From a virus: a stretch of 21,162 bases of DNA. Location: IMG/VR virus record IMGVR_UViG_3300042344_000338, positions 1 to 21,162 of that record. One strand, written 5' to 3'. Position numbers and translations under genes: made by a program. Shown here piece after piece: positions 1 through 19,312 of this stretch. The stretch's first letter is position 1, and the number at the start of each line of letters is the position of its first letter. A model generated the notes under the pieces. The model was not told where the DNA came from, made no database searches, and saw nothing but the letters and a program-made list of their open reading frames with translations.

Positions 1-101
1 CGCTGAACGGCGTTGCGTGGGATGACGATTCGCAAGTCTCGCGGCTCGTGCTGGAGAAGAGCTACGGAACGGAGGGCCGCACGACCGTGCGGATTTCGTG
101 A
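1..101 (+). CDS. RusA-like Holliday junction resolvase, C-terminal fragment
   Basis: This is the last part of a gene that begins before the window; reading from base 3 gives 32 residues ending at TGA 99-101. The peptide contains NGVAWDDDSQV followed by a basic, hydrophobic tail ending in TTVRIS. That is the pattern seen near the C-terminus of RusA-family endodeoxyribonucleases, in which acidic residues around a DDSQV segment help bind the metal and later strands complete the fold. RusA enzymes cut Holliday junctions and are common in phage replication/recombination modules, so this probably marks the end of that module. The stop codon overlaps the next start (TGATG). The N-terminal catalytic residues are outside the window, so activity cannot be judged. 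Confidence 0.7.
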   Translation, partial: LNGVAWDDDSQVSRLVLEKSYGTEGRTTVRIS

Positions 102-727
102 TGCCCGAGATCACTCTTGATGACGAGTTCGGCCGGGCGATCGTGCTCACGATTCAACGGCTCAACATCCAGAGCGTCATTGAGGTCGGCTCGTGGGATG
201 GCACGGGCTCGACCGCCGTGCTGATTCAAGCCCTAAAAGACACGCCCGATGCACGGCTCACTTGCATTGAGCCTGACATTCATCGGTACGCAGCCTTGCA
301 TCGCACAGTGGTTCAGTTCCCGTGGGTCACAACCATCCGCCGCCGCAGCGTCTCGCGGGCGGCGATGACGCCGAAGCGGTTCGAGGATGTATGGGAATCC
401 CCGTACAACCACCTGCCGTACCCCGATCACCTCGTGCGGGAGTGGTGGAACGAGATGCCCGCCGACCGCCCCGGTGAGCGTGGGTATCTGGAGACGCTCA
501 CTACCGAGCGATGGGATGCCGCCCTCATCGACGGGTGCGAGTTCGCGGGGTGGGATGACTTCCGGCTGCTCAAGGATCGCGTGCGGGTGCTGATGCTCGA
601 TGACGCGTATCACGCGTTCAAGTGTGCCCAGGCTCACGACGAGCTTGGGCACGATCCCGCGTGGCTCTGTCTCTGGTGCTCCATGTTCGTGCGGCAGGGG
701 GCAAGCATCTGGATGCGACTCACATGA
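101..727 (+). CDS. Class I SAM-dependent methyltransferase-like protein
   Basis: The 208-residue product has a glycine-rich loop VIEVGSWDGTGS at residues 26-37, which resembles motif I of class I (Rossmann-fold) methyltransferases, followed by an acidic strand end IEPD at 56-59 that would contact the SAM ribose. A later strand, ALIDGCEFAG (141-150), and the RVLMLDD segment (162-168) fit the alternating beta/alpha pattern. The substrate is unknown. I chose ATG 101 because it forms a TGATG junction with the upstream stop; GTG 98 is an alternative one codon earlier. It overlaps the next gene by ATGA, so it is probably co-translated with the glycosyltransferase/radical SAM cassette, suggesting a shared pathway that modifies a sugar or small metabolite. 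Fold assignment is moderately sure, and methyl transfer is an inference. Confidence 0.6.
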   Translation: MPEITLDDEFGRAIVLTIQRLNIQSVIEVGSWDGTGSTAVLIQALKDTPDARLTCIEPDIHRYAALHRTVVQFPWVTTIRRRSVSRAAMTPKRFEDVWESPYNHLPYPDHLVREWWNEMPADRPGERGYLETLTTERWDAALIDGCEFAGWDDFRLLKDRVRVLMLDDAYHAFKCAQAHDELGHDPAWLCLWCSMFVRQGASIWMRLT

Positions 728-1359
728 AGACCGTCGTGCTCGTCAGCGGGCAGATGCGAACGGCCGACCAGTGTGCCGCGGGCATCCGCTCGCTCTATCC
801 CGATGCGACGTTTGTGGTACACGCCGTCGCTGACGAGGACGCCGAGAAAGCGTTCTTGTTCCGCCCGGCGGTGACGGTCATCGAGCCGCAGCACGAGATG
901 CCCGAGCGGCGGGAGTATTCGTGGCAGATGGGTCGCGGCTGCCACGGGGTGCAGCGGGTGCTCAAGCAGTTGTGGGGGCTGCGTCGGGTCTGGCAAGTCT
1001 TCGAGGCGAGCGGCATCGAAGCCGATGTCATCGTGCGGTGCCGGGCCGACCTCGCGTTCAGCGTGCCGCCCGAGCCGTTCGAGGGCGCGGGCTGGCGGGT
1101 GCCGACGTTCGCGAACTGGTGGGGCTTCAATGACCGATTCGGCTTCGGCGACTTGCAAGCCATGCGACGCTACTTCATGCGGCTCGACCGGCTCGATGAA
1201 TACATCGACGCGGGCGGCATCTTCCATCCCGAGACGTTCCTCGGGTGGGCGATGCAGGGGATCGCGGCTCGGAGCACGCAGGCAGTGTTCGCGACGGTGC
1301 GGGCCGACGGCACGCGAGACGAGCCGCAGTGGTTCACGAACGCAGGAGACATCCGGTGA
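724..1359 (+). CDS. Glycosyltransferase-like protein (RADLxF / NDRFxxG type)
   Basis: The 211-residue protein begins MKTVVLVSGQMRT, a first beta strand and loop typical of a family of polysaccharide-biosynthesis proteins. It carries RADLAF at 107-112 and NDRFGFG at 136-142, followed by a helix with QAM. These two motifs resemble those of glycosyltransferase-like proteins in capsule loci, where an R-x-D-L segment and an N-D-x-F-x-x-G segment are conserved. The donor and acceptor sugars cannot be told from the sequence. The start ATG 724 overlaps the methyltransferase stop (ATGA), and its stop TGA 1357-1359 overlaps the radical SAM GTG start, so translation of the three is coupled. No signal peptide is visible; the protein is likely cytoplasmic. 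The family resemblance is by eye and the enzymatic role is inferred. Confidence 0.5.
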   Translation: MKTVVLVSGQMRTADQCAAGIRSLYPDATFVVHAVADEDAEKAFLFRPAVTVIEPQHEMPERREYSWQMGRGCHGVQRVLKQLWGLRRVWQVFEASGIEADVIVRCRADLAFSVPPEPFEGAGWRVPTFANWWGFNDRFGFGDLQAMRRYFMRLDRLDEYIDAGGIFHPETFLGWAMQGIAARSTQAVFATVRADGTRDEPQWFTNAGDIR

Positions 1360-3098
1360 AGGTGCTGTTCTCGAATCCGCCCTGGTGGGATGTCTCCGAG
1401 CAGTACCTCCGCTGCGGCGTGCGGGCCGGCTCCCGGTGGCCGTTCACCATGCCCGCGAACTCCATGCCGGGCGAGTTCAAGTTCGGGGGCTACCTCCCGT
1501 ACCCGTTCTTCTTGGGCTACGCGGCGACCTACGCGGCGGCGAACACGACGGCCGAGATTCGGTTCCGCGATTCGATCGCCCTGCGGGAGACCTACCAGAC
1601 CTACGCGGACTACCTCGCGGTCGGGAAGTTCGACATCGTAGTGATCGAGACGGCGACCCCGAGTTGGCAGCACGATGCCCAGGTCGTGCAGATGATTCAC
1701 AACGTGCTGCCCGCGGCGAAGATCGTCATCGCCGGGCCGATCACGACCACGAAGAGCGACGAGATCCTTGCGACGCTGCCGGTTCACGCGTGCCTCCGGG
1801 GCGAGTACGAAAAGAACGCAGTGAAGGTGATCGAAGGGGCGAGCGGCGTGATCGACTTCGATCTGCTCACGCTCGCGGAGATGAACGCGGCACCGCCCCC
1901 GTACATGGATGCGGAGATCGCACACAGGTACTTCGACTACAACCCGATCGGTCAGCAGTACCCGCACGCTCATGTGTGGTCGAGTCGGGGATGCCCGTAC
2001 AAGTGCCTCGCGGGCGACACGCTCGTGAACACGGTCGAGGGCATGGTGCCGATCCGCGATCTTGTGGGCCGCACCGATGTCGGAGTCTTCACGTATGACC
2101 GCGAGGCGAAACGGGCGAAGATCTCGACGCCCCGAGTCATCGCCAAGACCGGCGAGAACCAGAAGCTTGTGCGGGTTCACTTCGATGACGGGTCGCACAT
2201 CGACTGCACTCCCGACCATCGGTTCGTAGTGTGGAACTACGGAGAAAACAGTCAACTAATCGAGGCGTCGCATCTCTCTTCTGAGATGCAATGCGTCCGC
2301 GTCTCAGGGAAGGTTTACGTTCGCACCCTAGCAGTCGAGGAACTGCCGGGCCTGCACGACACGTACTGCATGGAGGTTCCCGATACGGGAGTCTTCTACG
2401 CGAACGACGTGCTCGTCAAAAACTGCTGCTTCTGCGTGTGGCCTGCCGCGATGACGGGGAACGATCCCGACGGCACAAACGTCCGCAAGGTTCGGCACTA
2501 CTCGCCCGAGTACATGGAGCCCTACCTAACCGGGCTCGTGCGTGACTACGGGTATCAGTCGATCTATTTCGACGATGACACGTTCAACCTGGGCAACTCG
2601 CACGTCGTGAAGATGTGCGAGGTGATGCGGCGAGTCGGCGTGCCGTGGTCGGCGATGTGCCGGGCCGACACGAGCAAGATGGAAACGTGGTCGCTGATGA
2701 AGGAGTCGGGCTGCTTCGGCGTGAAGCTCGGATTCGAGAGCGGCAATCAGTACGTGGTCGACAAGATCGTGAACAAGCACCTCGATCTGGAGTACGCCCG
2801 CGAGGTGGTGCATGAACTCAAGCGGATCGGAATGACGGTTCACGGCACGTTTACGGTCGGGCTGCCGGGCGAGACCCGCGAGCAGATGCAGGACACGGTG
2901 CGGTTCATCGAGTCGCTCCCGCTCGACTCGCACCAACTCTCTGGCACCGCCGAGATCGAAGGCACGCCGCTGCACACGCTTCGCACGGCAGGGCACCTCG
3001 ATGCCTACGAAGGGGCGAGCCTCCCGGCTGATGCCGAGATGCACACCGACGGCAACAAGCGGTTCGCGATGCTGGCCGAGGAGCTCCGCAACTCGTGA
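1356..3098 (+). CDS. B12-binding-type radical SAM protein interrupted by a mini-intein
   Basis: The 580-residue precursor would splice to a 440-residue enzyme. Residues 1-210 contain a Rossmann-like region (FDIVVIETATPSW, then KIVIAGP and ACLRGEYE) like the cobalamin-binding domain in front of many radical SAM enzymes, although no clear DxHxxG cobalamin ligand is seen. The radical SAM core starts at GCPYK (212-216), is broken by the intein (217-356), and resumes with CCFC (357-360). After splicing this reads CPYKCCFC, the exact CxxxCxxC motif that holds the 4Fe-4S cluster. Later landmarks are FDDDTFN, GFESGN and the VGLPGET loop, typical of the SAM-binding barrel. GTG 1356 overlaps the upstream TGA, and the stop overlaps the next GTG. 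The substrate is unknown; neighbouring sugar-transferase-like genes suggest carbohydrate or lipid-linked modification. Confidence 0.85.
   Translation: MKVLFSNPPWWDVSEQYLRCGVRAGSRWPFTMPANSMPGEFKFGGYLPYPFFLGYAATYAAANTTAEIRFRDSIALRETYQTYADYLAVGKFDIVVIETATPSWQHDAQVVQMIHNVLPAAKIVIAGPITTTKSDEILATLPVHACLRGEYEKNAVKVIEGASGVIDFDLLTLAEMNAAPPPYMDAEIAHRYFDYNPIGQQYPHAHVWSSRGCPYKCLAGDTLVNTVEGMVPIRDLVGRTDVGVFTYDREAKRAKISTPRVIAKTGENQKLVRVHFDDGSHIDCTPDHRFVVWNYGENSQLIEASHLSSEMQCVRVSGKVYVRTLAVEELPGLHDTYCMEVPDTGVFYANDVLVKNCCFCVWPAAMTGNDPDGTNVRKVRHYSPEYMEPYLTGLVRDYGYQSIYFDDDTFNLGNSHVVKMCEVMRRVGVPWSAMCRADTSKMETWSLMKESGCFGVKLGFESGNQYVVDKIVNKHLDLEYAREVVHELKRIGMTVHGTFTVGLPGETREQMQDTVRFIESLPLDSHQLSGTAEIEGTPLHTLRTAGHLDAYEGASLPADAEMHTDGNKRFAMLAEELRNS
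2004..2423 (+). other. Mini-intein (140 codons) inside the radical SAM cluster motif
   Basis: The in-frame insert starts with CLAGDTLV, a standard intein block A with nucleophile Cys1. It has a block B segment with T69-P-D-H72 (the TxxH that assists the first acyl shift) and ends VFYANDVLVKN, matching blocks F and G with the terminal Asn140. The +1 extein residue is Cys, as needed for the second trans-esterification, so this is a true intein candidate rather than a bacterial intein-like domain. At 140 residues, with no LAGLIDADG or HNH block between B and F, it is a mini-intein lacking a homing endonuclease. The penultimate residue is Lys in place of the usual His, and the block F His is also absent. 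Removing it exactly restores CxxxCxxC in the host protein. Confidence 0.92.
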
Positions 3099-3808
3099 AC
3101 GTCACGGTCTCCGCATACAACCGCCCGGCGTATCTCGAACAGACGCTCGCCGCGTTGCGTGAGTGCGACGGGATCGCCGACTGCCGGGTGATGGTGCTGA
3201 TCGACCCTTCGGAGGCATCGGTTCACTCAGCCGCTCTCGCGGCCCGATACGGCTTCGAGTCTGGCACCTATCCCGATCGGGTCGGGTGCAACCGGGCGAT
3301 CCGCAACGCCCTCGCGTTCGGGTTCAACGAGATGGAGAGCCAGTTTCACGTTCACTTCGAGGATGACACGGTTCCGACTCGCGATGCCCTGCGGTGGTTC
3401 GCGTGGGCTGGCGATCACTACCGAGACGATCCCGCCGTGATGAACGTCTCGGGCTACCAGAAGATCAGCAACGGTCGGCTCGGCGAGTGCGGGCTGCGTC
3501 GCTGGTTCACGCCGTGGGGCTGGGGCGTCTGGCGAGATCGGTGGCTCGGGCTGCACCTCGGGTGGGTTCGCGACGATTCGACTTCGTGGGATGTGATCGT
3601 GAACCACGCCCTGCGGGCTGGGCGATACGAAGCGTTCCCCACAGTGAGCCGCGTCCAGAACATCGGGGCAGAGCAGGGCACGCATGTGCCCAGTGCCGAG
3701 TGGCACGCCGAGCATCACCGCGTGGCGGTCACAGCGGATGACATCGACGGGCCGCAGCCCGAGGCGTGGCAGGAAGTGCGGAGGGCCGATCGTGCAGATC
3801 ACGATTGA
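3095..3808 (+). CDS. Glycosyltransferase family 2-like (GT-A) protein
   Basis: The 237-residue product opens with VNVTVSAYNRPAYLEQTL, the usual first strand and helix of GT-A glycosyltransferases, in which Y/F-N-R-P is a common turn. An acidic cluster FEDDT at 89-92 sits at the end of a strand (QFHVH) and is the likely DxD-type site binding the metal and nucleotide-sugar. An aromatic segment WFTPWGWGVWRDRW (137-150) is like the acceptor-side loop of related enzymes. No transmembrane segment is seen. GTG 3095 overlaps the radical SAM stop by GTGA. Its 3' end overlaps the next gene by 17 bases. It could transfer a sugar to a phage or host component; the substrate is not predictable. GT-A membership is fairly secure. 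Confidence 0.68.
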   Translation: MNVTVSAYNRPAYLEQTLAALRECDGIADCRVMVLIDPSEASVHSAALAARYGFESGTYPDRVGCNRAIRNALAFGFNEMESQFHVHFEDDTVPTRDALRWFAWAGDHYRDDPAVMNVSGYQKISNGRLGECGLRRWFTPWGWGVWRDRWLGLHLGWVRDDSTSWDVIVNHALRAGRYEAFPTVSRVQNIGAEQGTHVPSAEWHAEHHRVAVTADDIDGPQPEAWQEVRRADRADHD

Positions 3809-4655
3809 GGAAGTCGAAGCCCATCGGCCCGATGTGCTGCTCCCGCCCGATCCGGAGTTCGCCGAGCTCTACGCGATCGCCGTCGATGCTGGTCGCGAGC
3901 TCGCCGCCCGGTCGACCGTCGCGATGGTCGCCATCTGCCGCAACGCGATGCCGTGGCTGCCGCAGACGCTCGATCTCGTGGAGCGAACCGGGGCGATGTT
4001 CCGCGAGTCGGCGTGCTTCATCTTCGAGAACGACTCGGAGGACGGCACGAAGGATCTGCTCAAGGCGTGGGCCGATCACGACCGCCGCAAAGTCTCGCTG
4101 AACATCAACCATCGGCCGCACCTCTGCGGCGAGAAATCAGCCGCCCGCACCGATGCCCTAGCAGCCTACCGCACCGAGTGCCAGCGGTGGGTCACGAGCC
4201 GCGAGCCGGTCGACTACGTGATCGTCTTTGACTCCGACGCGTGGGGCGGCTGGAGCGTCGACGGCGTGGCGACCTCGCTGTACTGGCTCGATCGCACACC
4301 GGCTGCGGCAGCGATGGCGAGCTACTCGTGGTGCGAGATGAATACCAGCGTCGGCCCGTTCCCGGCGCACTATGACGCATGGGCCGCGAGATTGAATCAC
4401 TGGGGGGAGAGGGATCACGGTTGGTTCCACCATTGGCACCCCCCGGTAGGCTCAATGCCGGTGCGGTTCAACTCTGCCTTCGGGCAGTTAGCGGTGTATC
4501 GGCATGACTGCTACGTGAGGGGGCAGTATGCGGGCGGTGATTGCGAGCACGTTCTCATGCACCGCTCGATGGGCGGGCCGGTGTTTCTGAATCCGAGTTC
4601 GCGGTGCGTCTCCTTCTGGGTGCCAACGGATGGCGGGCGACACAAGCCGGATTGA
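3792..4655 (+). CDS. Glycosyltransferase-like protein, CAP59/GT69-like pattern
   Basis: This 287-residue protein has STVAMVAICRNAMPWLPQTL near residue 41, then an FENDSEDGTK loop (78-87) that resembles the ENGSxDGT segment of CAP59-type mannosyltransferases, and a DSD triad at 147-149 at the end of a hydrophobic strand (YVIVF), a good candidate for the metal/nucleotide-sugar site. A second aromatic, His-rich segment (residues about 205-220) may shape the acceptor pocket. I chose GTG 3792, 17 bases inside the upstream gene, because the coding pattern begins there and the longer upstream reading looks out-of-frame. It is the last member of the coupled cassette starting at 101. Family placement rests on the two motifs only, and specificity is unknown. 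Confidence 0.58.
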   Translation: MQITIEEVEAHRPDVLLPPDPEFAELYAIAVDAGRELAARSTVAMVAICRNAMPWLPQTLDLVERTGAMFRESACFIFENDSEDGTKDLLKAWADHDRRKVSLNINHRPHLCGEKSAARTDALAAYRTECQRWVTSREPVDYVIVFDSDAWGGWSVDGVATSLYWLDRTPAAAAMASYSWCEMNTSVGPFPAHYDAWAARLNHWGERDHGWFHHWHPPVGSMPVRFNSAFGQLAVYRHDCYVRGQYAGGDCEHVLMHRSMGGPVFLNPSSRCVSFWVPTDGGRHKPD

Positions 4656-5037
4656 TGCGGCGACGCTGCGACTCCAGTGGAACTCCTATCTGCCGATGGG
4701 AGCCATCTGCCAATACTGGACTGTCACGGTTCACCAGTTGGTGAGGCTTCGCGTCGCGTGGGAACTGCCGCCCCGCAACGATCGCAAGCGACGCTACAAG
4801 CCGAGCCGTGACGAGCGGCTCCTCGATCCCGACGCCGACGAGCTCGCCGCCAGCGAGTCGTGCCTCGACCTCGCCCCGATGGTCGCCGAGCGGGTGACGG
4901 TGGTGCAGGCTACGTGGACGGTGGCCGATTGGGCAGAACGTCAGGCGGTGAAGCCTGGGCCGTTCCGGCTTGCTCGCATCGACACGCCCGACGAAGCCCG
5001 CGATCTCGTGGACGAGGCCAGCGAGGGCGAGTGGTGA
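4630..5037 (+). CDS. Small protein with possible helix-turn-helix region
   Basis: The 135-residue product overlaps the upstream gene by 26 bases. Residues about 10-55 (LRLQWNSYLPMGAICQYWTV, then a basic ELPPRNDRKRRYK stretch) could form a GcrA- or homeodomain-like helix-turn-helix: a helix, the turn around PMGAICQYW, a recognition helix and a trailing ELPPR arm. The second half is acidic and probably helical. If the reading is right it might be a phage regulator, but the match is weak and no partner is evident. The ATG at 4630 lacks a clear Shine-Dalgarno sequence, so coupling with the upstream gene is likely. The stop overlaps the GTG of the next gene. Confidence 0.5.
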   Translation: MAGDTSRIDAATLRLQWNSYLPMGAICQYWTVTVHQLVRLRVAWELPPRNDRKRRYKPSRDERLLDPDADELAASESCLDLAPMVAERVTVVQATWTVADWAERQAVKPGPFRLARIDTPDEARDLVDEASEGEW

Positions 5038-5310: not shown

Positions 5311-5610
5311 ATGCCAGCGTATGAGATGACAGCCGCCGAGACGGCTGAGTACGGCAACACGCTCAATATCTGGCAGGCGATCCGCCTGTTGCAAACGTGG
5401 AGCCCGCTGCTCGCGTATGGGCAGAAGTTCGTGCAGACGATCGACCCGTACCAGAAGGGGCTGATCGTGGGCGAGGCTGCCGAGTGGCTCGCGAGCAAGA
5501 CCGACAGCACGGTTGACGATCAACTCGTGCGAAAGCTCGCCGCCGTCGCCACCACGAAGGAAGGCGAAGACCTCATTCGATTCTGCCTCGGGCTTGCGGG
5601 CGTGAAGTGA
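5311..5610 (+). CDS. Hypothetical 99-residue protein
   Basis: This unrecognised protein is predicted mostly helical, with a mildly hydrophobic middle (IWQAIRLLQTWSPLLAYGQ) that is too polar for a clear membrane span and a C-terminal helix ending GLAGVK. I chose ATG 5311, which has GGAG eight bases upstream at 5299-5302; an in-frame ATG at 5275 with GAGG upstream is an alternative that would add 12 residues and overlap the previous gene. The stop overlaps the next start in a TGATG arrangement. The context, just before a two-span membrane protein and a papain-like peptidase, might place it in a lysis or host-interaction set, but nothing in the sequence gives its role. Confidence 0.6.
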   Translation: MPAYEMTAAETAEYGNTLNIWQAIRLLQTWSPLLAYGQKFVQTIDPYQKGLIVGEAAEWLASKTDSTVDDQLVRKLAAVATTKEGEDLIRFCLGLAGVK

Positions 5611-6221
5611 TGCTCGATCGTGAAACACTCCTACGCACCCTCGCAGTCGGGGCAGCCGTGGCGATCCTGGCCGCGCCGTATTGGCGTGTGGTGGCTGCTG
5701 CTCTCGAAGCGGCAGTCGCCGCCGCCCAGGCCCACGCCCACACCCTCGGGCGGCTCGCCGCCGCCGGGCTGATCGTGGCGGCAGCGTGGGGCAAGATCCC
5801 GCTGCCAGCGTTCGAGGTGCCCACCGTGCCGTCGGTGACGGTCGAGGAGCCGAGTGCCGAGATGCAGACGATCGTCGCCCCCGTCGCTGCCGCCCTGCGG
5901 TCGCTGCCCGCTGGCGATCGGATGCTCTGGGCTTCAACGTGGAGCAAGGCGGCGGTCGTGGTGGCTGGTGATGCGACCGCCCGTGAGGCGGCGTTCACCG
6001 AAACGCGTTCGCTCCAGGCGTTCACCGGGCTGGCTCTCGACATCGCATGGCGGCGGATCGGGCAGCACGAGCCGGGCTCGAACGAGCCGCTGCGGCAGGC
6101 TCTGGAAGCCGCCTACGGGGCGGCAGTCGGCACCGACGAGGTTCCGGTCACTCGCGACATTCGCGACCGTTACGCCGCGTTTGCAAAAGCCGTGGCATGG
6201 GCTGGCGTCCACGGGGGGTGA
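5610..6221 (+). CDS. Predicted two-span membrane protein
   Basis: The 203-residue protein has two alanine-rich hydrophobic segments, at about residues 8-24 and 47-62, separated by a short helix, followed by a long soluble part of about 140 residues. The soluble part has hydrophobic strands and helices and a charged C-terminus. Small phage membrane proteins next to a peptidase are often holins or anchors, but the large C-terminal domain is bigger than a classical holin and I do not recognise it. ATG 5610 overlaps the previous stop; GTG 5607 one codon earlier is possible. It is followed after three bases by the papain-like peptidase, so the two are likely translated together and may work at the membrane. 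Confidence 0.6.
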   Translation: MLDRETLLRTLAVGAAVAILAAPYWRVVAAALEAAVAAAQAHAHTLGRLAAAGLIVAAAWGKIPLPAFEVPTVPSVTVEEPSAEMQTIVAPVAAALRSLPAGDRMLWASTWSKAAVVVAGDATAREAAFTETRSLQAFTGLALDIAWRRIGQHEPGSNEPLRQALEAAYGAAVGTDEVPVTRDIRDRYAAFAKAVAWAGVHGG

Positions 6222-6224
6222 GCG

Positions 6225-7163
6225 ATGGCGGGCGAATCTTTCCTGCCGTTGTTCGGCTACCAACCAGACCCCGAGGGCTCGGCGGCGTTCGTCGCCTCCC
6301 TCCCGCACCCGACGCTCGCGGACGCCGGGCCGGATCTCCAGGCGGCGAAGACCGACGTTCACCTAGAGCGGGCTCTCCTCCATTGTTCGCCCTCGTGGAA
6401 GCGGGGCAGCCAGCCGATCGGTAGCTGCGTTGGCTGGGGGTTCGCGATGTCGGTGGACATCCTCGCGGCGTGCGACATCGTGCTCCGCAAAGAACCCGAG
6501 ACCTGGGGCGGTCGCACGATCGAGGCGAGCGTCTACGGCGTGAGCCGGGTCGAAGCTCGCGGGCGAACATCGGCACCGGGCGGGGACGGGAGCACGGGCT
6601 TTCATGCCGCCAAGGCTGTCAGGGATTGGGGCGTGCTGCACTACGGCCAGCAATACGGCAGCGTTCGGTTCGACCAGCAGTTCACCGGCACGCAGGAAAA
6701 GCAGTGGGGCCGCGACGGGATGCCGGATGAGTTGGAGCCCTACGCCAAGCAAAGGCGGTGCTCCGAGGTCACGCTCGTCAAGTCGTTTGACGATTGTGCG
6801 AAAGCGATCAGCAACGGCTACCCGGTCGCTCTCTGCTCGATGCGTGGGTTCTCGATGCGGTTCGCCGATCGAGGCTCTCTCGGCGGCGGGTGGCTCTCGC
6901 CCGCTGGCACTTGGGCACATTGCATGATGGGCTGCGCGGTGAGGTGGGATCGCCCCGCGATCCTCGTGCCCAACTCGTGGGGCAACTGCTACTCCGGTGC
7001 AGTTGACTCGCGGCTGCCCGAGGCGTTCCAGAAGTCGGCGGGCTGGGTCGATGCCGAAGTGATTGACTCGATGTGCAAGGGCGGCGACTCCTACGCCCTC
7101 GCGGGCTTCAGCGGCTTCAAGCCGACGGCACTTCCGAACGATTGGCTGGAGGGGATTCTTTGA
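6225..7163 (+). CDS. Papain-like (C1-type) cysteine peptidase
   Basis: The 312-residue protein has the order of catalytic landmarks expected for the papain fold: GSCVGWGFA with Cys68 at the start of the central helix (papain has GSCWAFS), His232 in TWAHCMMG, and Asn250 in PNSWGN, the classical NSWG turn. The Cys-His and His-Asn spacings are similar to papain. Residues 1-60 look like a short propeptide-like or structural region and no signal peptide is seen. It starts three bases after the upstream membrane gene. Possible jobs are cutting a host or virion protein, processing an injected protein, or a lysis function; none can be chosen from the sequence. Catalytic residues are intact, so activity is plausible. 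Confidence 0.8.
   Translation: MAGESFLPLFGYQPDPEGSAAFVASLPHPTLADAGPDLQAAKTDVHLERALLHCSPSWKRGSQPIGSCVGWGFAMSVDILAACDIVLRKEPETWGGRTIEASVYGVSRVEARGRTSAPGGDGSTGFHAAKAVRDWGVLHYGQQYGSVRFDQQFTGTQEKQWGRDGMPDELEPYAKQRRCSEVTLVKSFDDCAKAISNGYPVALCSMRGFSMRFADRGSLGGGWLSPAGTWAHCMMGCAVRWDRPAILVPNSWGNCYSGAVDSRLPEAFQKSAGWVDAEVIDSMCKGGDSYALAGFSGFKPTALPNDWLEGIL
7148..7154 (+). promoter_or_regulatory. Shine-Dalgarno site supporting a TTG start
   Basis: The sequence GGAGGGG lies five bases before TTG 7160 and inside the end of the peptidase gene. It decides the start of the following lipoprotein gene, whose first ATG would otherwise be nine codons later and would remove the charged start of the signal peptide. 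Confidence 0.6.
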
Positions 7164-11299: not shown

Positions 11300-11758
11300 A
11301 TGGGCCGGGGCCGAAAGCCAACGCCGAAGCCGATCCTGAAGCTCCGGGGCTCCCGCATTCGCGGGCCGCACGTCTCGGGCATCGACGCCCCGCCGGGCTC
11401 GCCGCCGGCCCCGGATTGGATGTGCCCGACCGCCCGTGCCGAGTGGGATCGCGTGGCCCCGATGCTTGAAGCGTCGAAGGTCATGAGCCCGCGACATCAG
11501 CAGACGCTCGCGGCGTACTGCGACGCGTTCGCCGACATGGTGACGGCTGACCGCGAGCTCCAGGCGAACGGCACGACCATCATGGACGACAAGGGTAGGG
11601 TGAGTAATCACCCGGCATGGCTCCGCAAGCGGGATGCTCGGAACCAGATGCTCAAGTTTGCAGCAGAGTTCGGGCTCACTGCCTCCGCACTCGCCAGGGT
11701 CTCGGCCATTGAGCAAACGCCGGAAAACGACGAAGACGCCGCCATCCTGTTCGGATGA
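11300..11758 (+). CDS. terS: Terminase small subunit (P27-like)
   Basis: The 152-residue protein begins MGRGRKPTPKPILKLRGS, the basic start typical of P27-family small terminases, followed by a Pro-rich stretch and a helical body with the segment ARAEWDRVAPMLEASKVM and then LAAYCDAFADM. TerS recognises the phage DNA and brings TerL to it. ATG 11300 has AGGA at 11287-11290; GTG 11276 upstream would add eight residues and is less likely. The 3' end overlaps the large subunit gene in another frame. Order HNH, TerS, TerL and portal is standard for this type of phage. Confidence 0.85.
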   Translation: MGRGRKPTPKPILKLRGSRIRGPHVSGIDAPPGSPPAPDWMCPTARAEWDRVAPMLEASKVMSPRHQQTLAAYCDAFADMVTADRELQANGTTIMDDKGRVSNHPAWLRKRDARNQMLKFAAEFGLTASALARVSAIEQTPENDEDAAILFG

Positions 11759-13271
11759 CTGCAACTGCTCATCGTGCCGGGCGGTGAAGTTCTTCGAGAA
11801 GTTCTTCACCCACGCCAAGGGCGAGAAGGGCGGGCAGCCGTTCCTGCTCGAACCGTGGCAACGCGACTACGTGCGGGCGTTGTTCGCCGAGCGTGACGGT
11901 CGCCGGCAAGTGCGAACGTCGCTGCTCGCGGTGCCTCGCAAAAACGGAAAGAGCACGCTCTGTGCCGGGCTGGCTCTCAAGCTCTTGATGGAACCCGAGC
12001 CGGGCGGCGAAGTCTATTCGTGTGCCGCGTCGCGGGATCAAGCCCGGCTCGTGTTCGATACCGCAAGGATCGCGGTCGAGCAGTCGCCGGTGCTGTCGAA
12101 GCATCTGAAGGTCTACCGCTCGGCGATCGTGTGCGAAAAGACGCACGCGACCTACAAGGCACTCTCGGCCGAGGCTGGCATCCAGCACGGGCTGAACCCG
12201 CATGGCGTGATCTTTGACGAGTTGCACGCCCAGCCGAACCGCGAACTCGTGGATGTGATGGCGACTTCGATGGGTGCCCGGTCGCAGCCGCTCATGATCT
12301 ACATCACGACGGCGGGGTATGACCGGAAAAGCATTTGTTGGGAAATCTGGAGGTACGCGGAGGCGGTCGCGTCGGGCGGCATCGCCGACGATCGGTTCCT
12401 GCCGGCGATCTTCTGTGCCGCCCCGGAGGCCGATTGGAAGGACGAAAAGACCTGGGCCGTCGCGAACCCGAACCTCGGCGTCTCGGTGAACTCGGACTTC
12501 CTGCGGAGCGAGTGCTCGCGGGCGGTCGAGATGCCCGCATACGAAAACACTTTCCGGCAACTTTATTTGAACCAGTGGACAGAGCAGGACATTCGCTGGT
12601 TGCGAATGGATCACTGGGCGCAGGGCAATGCCCCGTGCCCGGTTTCGCTCGACAAGCGGGAGTGCTGGGCGGGGCTCGACTTGGCGGCCACGTTCGACAC
12701 GACGGCTTTCGTGTTGCTGTTTCCCTTGGATGAAGGGCGGTACTGGGTCGAGCCGCACTTCTGGATTCCCGAGGAGAACATGCGGGAGCGGGTGCGACGG
12801 GACCGGGTTTCCTATGACGTTTGGGGTCGGCAGGGTCATCTCCATCTGACGCCGGGGAACGTCACTGACTTCGATCAAGTGCGGGCCGACATCAACCAAC
12901 TGGCGAAGAAATACAACATTCGCCAGATCGGAATCGACCGATGGAACGCCACGCAGTTAGCCAATCAACTGCAAGGAGACGGCATAAGCGTTGTAGGTTA
13001 CGGACAGGGCTATAGCTCGATGAGCGGCCCCGCGAAAGTGCTGGAATCGCTCACCGTGTCGGGCAAGTTGCTGCACGGCGGTCATCCGGTCTTGGCGTGG
13101 CAGGCGGGCAACGTGGCGATACAGCACGACCACAACGGAAACATCAAGCCGAGCAAGGCGAAGTCGAACGAGCGAATCGACGGGATCGTCGCCCTGGTCA
13201 TGGCCTTGGGCATCCATTCATCGACAGCGGCCCAAGGGCCAGCCACCGAACCCTCCATCCTCATCCTATGA
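11709..13271 (+). CDS. terL: Terminase large subunit
   Basis: The product is the packaging motor ATPase and nuclease. From TTG 11709 it is 520 residues. The ATPase part shows VKFFEKFFTHAKG, LLEPWQ (47-51), a Walker A motif VPRKNGKS (75-82) and a Walker B strand VIFDE (167-171). The nuclease part shows GLDLAATFDTTAF near D324, IGIDRWNA, and a final acidic site NERIDG with D491. The start is uncertain: TTG 11709 gives a natural MSKRRK start with AGGG nine bases upstream, GTG 11784 would cut into the conserved first helix, and ATG 11634 would overlap TerS by 125 bases. It ends in an ATGA overlap with the portal. The identity is certain, the start is not. Confidence 0.92.
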   Translation: MSKRRKTTKTPPSCSDDCNCSSCRAVKFFEKFFTHAKGEKGGQPFLLEPWQRDYVRALFAERDGRRQVRTSLLAVPRKNGKSTLCAGLALKLLMEPEPGGEVYSCAASRDQARLVFDTARIAVEQSPVLSKHLKVYRSAIVCEKTHATYKALSAEAGIQHGLNPHGVIFDELHAQPNRELVDVMATSMGARSQPLMIYITTAGYDRKSICWEIWRYAEAVASGGIADDRFLPAIFCAAPEADWKDEKTWAVANPNLGVSVNSDFLRSECSRAVEMPAYENTFRQLYLNQWTEQDIRWLRMDHWAQGNAPCPVSLDKRECWAGLDLAATFDTTAFVLLFPLDEGRYWVEPHFWIPEENMRERVRRDRVSYDVWGRQGHLHLTPGNVTDFDQVRADINQLAKKYNIRQIGIDRWNATQLANQLQGDGISVVGYGQGYSSMSGPAKVLESLTVSGKLLHGGHPVLAWQAGNVAIQHDHNGNIKPSKAKSNERIDGIVALVMALGIHSSTAAQGPATEPSILIL

Positions 13272-18521: not shown

Positions 18522-18566
18522 ACAGTGGATGGCGGGTGCGGCATGAGCCGTGCCCGCCATCTCTGT
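18522..18566 (+). terminator. Strong hairpin after the capsid genes, likely terminator or processing site
   Basis: The core is a 14-base-pair stem, 18529-18542 with 18547-18560 (two G-U pairs), closed by an ATGA loop. The stem can be extended outward to 18522/18566 with a bulge. It is very GC-rich and followed by CTCTGTTTG, a weak T-rich tract. It lies in the only sizeable gap between the capsid accessory gene and the next gene. It could lower transcription beyond the capsid genes or protect the mRNA end; a perfect Rho-independent terminator would have more Ts. Confidence 0.5.
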
Positions 18567-18577
18567 TTGAGGGCTCC

Positions 18578-19312
18578 ATGATCGTCAAGGTCGGCGGTAC
18601 AGATGTCGATGTGCGGATTGAGTGCGTTCTCAGCGGGCCTAGATTTGGCCCGATTAGCAATATCTTCGGCTGGGCTCAAGCCCTCATGCCGCTCGGCATC
18701 CGCCCGACGCTCGGGCAAGGTGCGCTGTGGGGTCAGGTTTTGCAACGTTGCCTAGAGCAGTTCGTGGACTCGACCGAGTACATCCTCACGACCGATTACG
18801 ATTCGTTCTGGGATCGCAAGACGGTCGAGGAACTTGTCGCCCTCGCGATGGCTTTTCAGTGCGACGCCCTCGCTCCGCTGCAAGTGAAACGCGAAGACGG
18901 TCGCCCGATGTTCACGTTGCCCGGCACGCTCGACAAGCCGCCCGAGGGCGGGGCGACTGAACTGCCGATGTCGTGGTTCGCCGAGCCCGTGCAGGAAGTC
19001 GATTCGGCTCACTTCGGCTGCACGCTGATCTCGACCAAGGCTCTGAAGCGAACTCCGAAACCTTGGTTCCAAGACATCCCCAACGACAAGGGGGAGTACG
19101 GAGACGGCAGAACTGACTCGGACATCCATATGTGGAGGCAGTTCCGCAAGGGCGGGAATCGCGTCTACATCACGCCCCGCGTCTCGATCGGCCACGGCGA
19201 GTATGTCTCGGTCTGGCCGGGCAAGGATCTACAGTCTCCGGTGTTTCAGTACGTGGGCGACTACACCGCGAACGGTAAGCCAAAAACTGCATGGAGTCTG
19301 CCGAAATCGTGA
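18578..19312 (+). CDS. Glycosyltransferase-like (GT-A) protein in the head module
   Basis: The 244-residue protein begins with a strand (VRIECVLSGPRFGPISN) that resembles the donor-binding start of GT-A enzymes, has a DYD triad at 73-75 in ILTTDYDSFWDR as the likely metal/nucleotide-sugar site, then a loop LAPLQVKREDGRP. Towards the end it has DSDIHMWRQFRKGG and VSIGHGEY, similar to the last acceptor/metal His region. ATG 18578 has GAGGG at about 18569-18573. It sits between the capsid accessory gene and the connector genes, an unusual place for a sugar transferase, and may modify virion proteins. Its stop overlaps the next GTG. Family assignment is moderate and the substrate is unknown. Confidence 0.62.
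   Translation: MIVKVGGTDVDVRIECVLSGPRFGPISNIFGWAQALMPLGIRPTLGQGALWGQVLQRCLEQFVDSTEYILTTDYDSFWDRKTVEELVALAMAFQCDALAPLQVKREDGRPMFTLPGTLDKPPEGGATELPMSWFAEPVQEVDSAHFGCTLISTKALKRTPKPWFQDIPNDKGEYGDGRTDSDIHMWRQFRKGGNRVYITPRVSIGHGEYVSVWPGKDLQSPVFQYVGDYTANGKPKTAWSLPKS

Follow-up and report, generated by a model that had tools for sequence, protein, structure and literature searches.

We have analyzed a block of five genes at positions 101-4655 of a 21,162-nucleotide stretch of viral DNA (the window, positions 1 to 21,162 of IMG/VR record IMGVR_UViG_3300042344_000338). The block is probably a phage glycan-tailoring operon whose radical SAM gene is split by an intein, and this intein would belong to a mobile HNH-homing lineage. 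Its position in the active-site motif of the radical SAM enzyme is the main feature of the block and was missed by the original prediction, which was made from this sequence alone. Comparison at the sequence level brought out the intein blocks, an exact empty site, an HNH-bearing sister, a clade confined to one insertion site and the association of the genes with each other.

The block consists of five plus strand ORFs that overlap serially by 4, 4, 4 and 17 nt. The unbroken run of overlapping genes described originally is real, and all five are found in identical order in three other genomes (L002, L003 and L004); because of this conservation the arrangement is not attributed to chance. The terminases of L002, L003 and L004 are 99%, 51% and 38% identical to that of the window, respectively; the block has therefore been kept in mosaic phages. 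An upstream RusA-like gene runs straight into the cassette through a TGATG overlap, but it is context, outside the pathway. No sugar-nucleotide synthesis gene was found within the window cassette, which counts against a glycan pathway. The features are as follows.

1..101, + strand: 3' end of the gene for a RusA-like Holliday-junction resolvase (RusA Pfam match at the corresponding position of L002).
101..727, + strand: Methyltransf_24-type SAM-dependent methyltransferase (Pfam match weak in the window, stronger in homologues; module HMM).
724..1359, + strand: DUF7796 glycosyltransferase (GT) with a predicted GT-A fold (PF25072 over the cut-off; AlphaFold model).
1356..3098, + strand: intein-containing precursor of a radical SAM protein of B12-binding architecture, AprD4/HpnJ-like (profile matches, fold).
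1356..2003, + strand: N-extein, 216 aa (exact empty site in L004 and L005).
2004..2423, + strand: mini-intein, 140 aa, without endonuclease domain (TIGR01445, intein blocks).
2424..3098, + strand: C-extein, 225 aa, beginning with the second cluster cysteine (+1).
3095..3808, + strand: GT2-like glycosyltransferase (weak Pfam match; kept in L002-L004).
3792..4655, + strand: GT2_4/CAP59-like glycosyltransferase with a GTG start at 3792 (Pfam match; kept in L002-L004).

In L002 the insertion of a weak HNH gene (11398-12240), absent from the window, separates the last GT from the cassette ORF that follows it. Upstream of the cassette the same genome carries a trypsin-like protease and a DNA polymerase III beta clamp (5572-6357 and 3822-5000).

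The Methyltransf_24 match of the window methyltransferase is under the cut-off (E 0.003), and homologues in L017, L018, L107, L110 and L113 score over it; the window protein matches the module HMM at 7e-40, although it is itself among the seed sequences of that HMM. The match of the second gene product to DUF7796 (PF25072) is over the cut-off (E 6.6e-7). The radical SAM ORF matches Radical_SAM over the cut-off (E 2.9e-12) and B12-binding under it (E 7.6e-4). For the last two genes, the GT2 match of the 3095-3808 product (E 0.003) and the Glyco_tranf_2_4 match of the 3792-4655 product (E 7e-5) are both under the cut-off, and the latter protein also has a marginal match to CAP59 (E 0.023).

Predicted structures gave the glycosyltransferase and radical SAM folds that had been anticipated from sequence. 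The AlphaFold model of the DUF7796 protein (pLDDT 91.6) is best matched by GT6 enzymes (Z 12.2, 171 residues, rmsd 3.1) such as BoGT6a (PDB 4ayj), which has a GT-A fold as well but belongs to a different family, with about 10% identity. There were 158 PDB matches at E <=0.001, and the best 50 of the 158 are glycosyltransferases or glycogenin. The model points to a GT-A glycosyltransferase, for which sugar transfer is predicted. The radical SAM model was built on the intein-free protein of L004 (pLDDT 89.7). Its best match is the diol-dehydratase AprD4 (PDB 6fd2; Z 30.7, 389 residues, rmsd 3.1), followed by MgmA, CysS, OxsB and TsrM. AprD4, which acts on the sugar-like paromamine, matches over the full-length fold at 22% identity, but the window protein is far under the cut-off of the AprD4 NCBIfam equivalog (87.1 of 500 bits). 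Judged by the model, the enzyme would be most like the sugar-acting AprD4.

Both hallmarks of the class are present, the CxxxCxxC motif (upon splicing) and the radical SAM core fold. The identification as a radical SAM gene thus stands, although what the ORF encodes is a precursor with an intein in it and no simple enzyme. Its earlier description as B12-type is sound as a statement about architecture. B12 dependence is unsupported, because none of the 25 members of the family has the DxHxxG cobalamin motif in its N-terminal domain; the sole occurrence is a chance match in the core domain of L028. Some cobalamin-dependent radical SAM proteins do lack this motif, so the enzyme may still use B12.

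The intein is inserted in frame within the cluster motif, CPYK/CLAGD...VLVKN/CCFC, where slashes mark the junctions. The first cluster cysteine is residue 213 (1992-1994), and the second and third are encoded at 2424-2426 and 2433-2435. Joining of the exteins gives CPYKCCFC (CxxxCxxC), which is invariant across the family alignment. The NCBIfam profile intein_Nterm (TIGR01445) reached 46.4 bits, well over its cut-off of 24.5 (E 6e-12), and intein_Cterm (TIGR01443) fell just short, with 15.5 bits against 15.6. The window intein has Cys1, TPDH in block B, YCMEV with its Cys in block F and a C-terminal Lys-Asn; the Thr-x-x-His of block B, as TPDH, is nearly invariant among related inteins. By these residues 2004-2423 is a class-1-type mini-intein, and we infer from sequence that the 1356-3098 product splices.

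The penultimate His, which is usual but not universal in class-1 inteins, is missing from the window intein and replaced by Lys. Among 22 related inteins this residue is Lys in 12, His in 7, and Ser, Ala and Arg in one each; the window junction is KN/C, and N/C is found in 22/22. Together with a rewritten linker and the lack of an endonuclease, the missing His would suit an intein that no longer splices, leaving the radical SAM gene a dead or decaying copy. We rank this under the best explanation and consider it unlikely: the frame is intact, Cys1, TPDH, the block-F Cys, the C-terminal Asn and Cys+1 are all retained, and Lys-Asn ends are the commonest type among the 22 inteins. Moreover, L002 keeps the same mini-intein, while the differences between its exteins and those of the window are mostly silent (dN/dS 0.04-0.07). 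Such purifying selection on the exteins argues that an active enzyme is made.

A mobile intein is the reading favoured by the alleles of related phages. The CPYKCCFC motif is unbroken in L004 and L005, which thus provide the exact intein-free site (proteins about 96% identical). The mini-intein of L002 is 98.8% identical to that of the window at the DNA level. In L003 the intein is 296 aa long and carries an HNH_3 domain, scoring over the Pfam cut-offs for both Intein_splicing and HNH_3, whereas the endonuclease domain is missing from the window and L002 inteins. The N-halves of the window and L003 inteins share 218/222 nt (dS 0.08), compared with dS 0.52-0.57 for the exteins; the C-half (last 90 nt) gives a noisier dS of 0.23. 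That silent divergence in the N-half is far under that of the exteins indicates recent movement. The central segment of the mini-intein (2227-2330) is unlike that of L003 despite near-identical flanks. Simple loss of sequence from the L003 form therefore does not account for the mini-intein, and the contrast between segment and flanks suggests recombination between inteins.

Relatives of the intein were gathered by scanning the viral collection from short peptide patterns, so the counts given here are lower bounds. There are 22 close relatives including the window intein, with L206 and L208 being near copies. All 22 interrupt a radical SAM protein just ahead of its second cluster cysteine, and Cys residues occupy -4, +1 and +4 in every case. 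In a maximum-likelihood tree these inteins form one clade (support 100/99), which excludes the viral inteins found at other positions; the next most similar inteins occupy unrelated insertion sites, many of them of the terminase type. The proteins that harbour them make up at least 8 groups, which share about 30% identity at most, and the proteins that were scanned hit a variety of B12-binding radical SAM subfamilies. The inteins of L191 and L190 are 69% identical and their exteins 29%; for L182 and L003 the values are 64% and 27%. This disagreement between intein and extein similarities is the mark of transfer between radical SAM families. Nineteen of the 22 inteins are longer than 200 aa, consistent with an endonuclease.

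A search of about 50,700 deposited phage records turned up no member of the lineage; there was one distant match (30%), in a gene annotated as dCTP deaminase. A cellular source was also sought, and the 240 + 349 genomes of two phyla gave no credible match (one match was interrupted by stops), an absence that is weak evidence; the same applies to plasmids, in which there was no match. Our literature search, mainly of open-access papers and directed both at inteins in radical SAM proteins and at phage radical SAM genes accompanied by glycosyltransferases, yielded no report of this intein lineage.

Inteins in radical SAM enzymes are already known, as scattered cases. MoaA is a radical SAM enzyme. 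The intein of Pyrococcus abyssi MoaA forms a disulfide between an N-extein Cys and Cys1 that blocks splicing of this oxygen-sensitive enzyme, according to a review (Callahan et al. 2011, in PMC10663303). It likewise sits in a radical SAM enzyme, but that enzyme is archaeal, cellular and of another radical SAM family, while the lineage described here is a phage one and carries HNH domains. For NF038136 (Rv2578c-family), also a radical SAM protein with an intein, a profile match running unbroken from SRGCPYK into the intein suggests the same site; however, the window protein scores 25 of 700 bits, far under the cut-off, and belongs to a different radical SAM family. Mycobacteriophage TerL inteins home to active-site motifs, have intein-free sister phages and spread by means of their endonuclease (PMC5050341). 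The lineage of the window intein is like them on all these points but differs in host protein and clade.

A tentative, rather doubtful extension is that one HNH intein lineage, adapted to the radical SAM cluster motif, hops between divergent families and, with Cys at -4, could act as a redox/iron-sulphur checkpoint releasing the enzyme under reducing conditions only. Such a gate is suggested by analogy with the MoaA intein and by the Cys at -4, a residue that the cluster motif itself requires.

In the pathway we propose, the DUF7796 GT-A transferase would attach a sugar to what is most likely a protein of the virion or a glycan of the host surface. The methyltransferase and the AprD4-like radical SAM enzyme would alter this sugar, and the two GT2-like enzymes would extend the chain. 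The [4Fe-4S]-binding CxxxCxxC of the radical SAM precursor, whose first cysteine is separated from the second by the mini-intein, would be restored by the class-1 pathway, with a Cys1 acyl shift, transfer to Cys+1 and Asn cyclisation; with CPYK joined to CCFC, the cluster could form. The window intein would be an endonuclease-free copy from a mobile HNH-homing lineage specialised on the cluster motif. Within this scheme we infer the sugar chemistry, the acceptor and the assembly of the cluster after splicing.

A glycan pathway had been predicted for the cassette, and this agrees with the GT and radical SAM folds and the conserved neighbourhood. The accompanying view that a radical SAM gene paired with GTs is unusual in a phage is not supported, as the pairing recurs in several phage lineages and, in part, in a bacterial flagellin locus. 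The homologues do not occur only singly in unrelated contexts, which would have counted against the original prediction. When the DUF7796 GT HMM was run on the loci from the radical SAM homologue searches, this GT was found near every phage homologue at >=50% identity and beside 0 of about 140 more distant loci; L183 and L184, truncated intein loci from a later scan, are outside this count. Conversely, radical SAM is present at 28/50 DUF7796 GT loci, and some of the other 22 have short flanks. The methyltransferase occurs at 23/28 GT loci with radical SAM and at 15/22 without; since it is at most GT loci even in the latter case, methyltransferase and GT look like the core of the module and radical SAM like an addition. 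Loci with this GT and methyltransferase and no radical SAM include L284, L291, L306, L314 and similar ones.

Some phages carry the module between terminase and portal genes, others between capsid and tail genes. The radical SAM and DUF7796 GT genes of the Opitutaceae MAG L026 adjoin genes for FliD, two flagellins and a GT41 enzyme; the module HMM found no methyltransferase there. The DUF7796 GT is absent from the DNA available around the closest bacterial radical SAM homologues, in L027-L031, which, like the GT loci without radical SAM, counts against the proposed operon. The homologue of Azospirillum tabaci (L028 8001-9734) has ~130 extra C-terminal residues.

These locations bear on what the cassette modifies. 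A sugar-bearing hypermodified phage DNA base, instead of a protein or surface glycan, would accord with the RusA gene just upstream, with a C5-cytosine DNA methylase further upstream in L002, and with the proposal that another, different phage radical SAM module modifies DNA (PMC11437467). Yet in several other phages the module is found between terminase/portal or capsid/tail genes, the Opitutaceae pair adjoins flagellins, no pyrimidine-hypermodification gene was recognised adjoining the module and no feature specific to DNA hypermodification was seen. We regard a DNA product as improbable and place it under the best explanation. As a version of the preferred glycan-tailoring operon, the cassette could alter host surface polysaccharide and not the virion, for example to block superinfection, and this we hold to be quite possible, if short of probable. 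The Pelagibacter and Azospirillum homologues do sit among cell-surface-type GTs and epimerases, but the packaging or structural placement in many relatives fits late expression and virion modification equally well or better.

Elsewhere in the window, the product of 18536-19312, among capsid/tail genes, has no family match over the cut-off; it contains TTDYDSFWD, resembling a GT-A sugar-binding motif, and is possibly a further glycosyltransferase. The product of 6225-7163 has SCVGWGFA, a later His and NSWG, recalling papain-type peptidases; a papain-like peptidase was not accepted, as this rests on motifs, with no Pfam match over the cut-off and no significant PDB match. Host assignment through the window TerL was abandoned, the best identities being 37-49% among 294 genomes from the phylum of a Planctomycetota MAG.

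Of wider interest is that a single clade of inteins sits at one catalytic cysteine across many divergent families of radical SAM enzymes from uncultivated phages. The empty, mini and full alleles in close phages amount to a natural experiment on homing, domestication and the possible gating of oxygen-sensitive enzymes by inteins. The module of methyltransferase, radical SAM enzyme and DUF7796 GT represents a form of glycan tailoring by phages that can be put to the test, and it hints at what the unnamed GT family DUF7796 may do.
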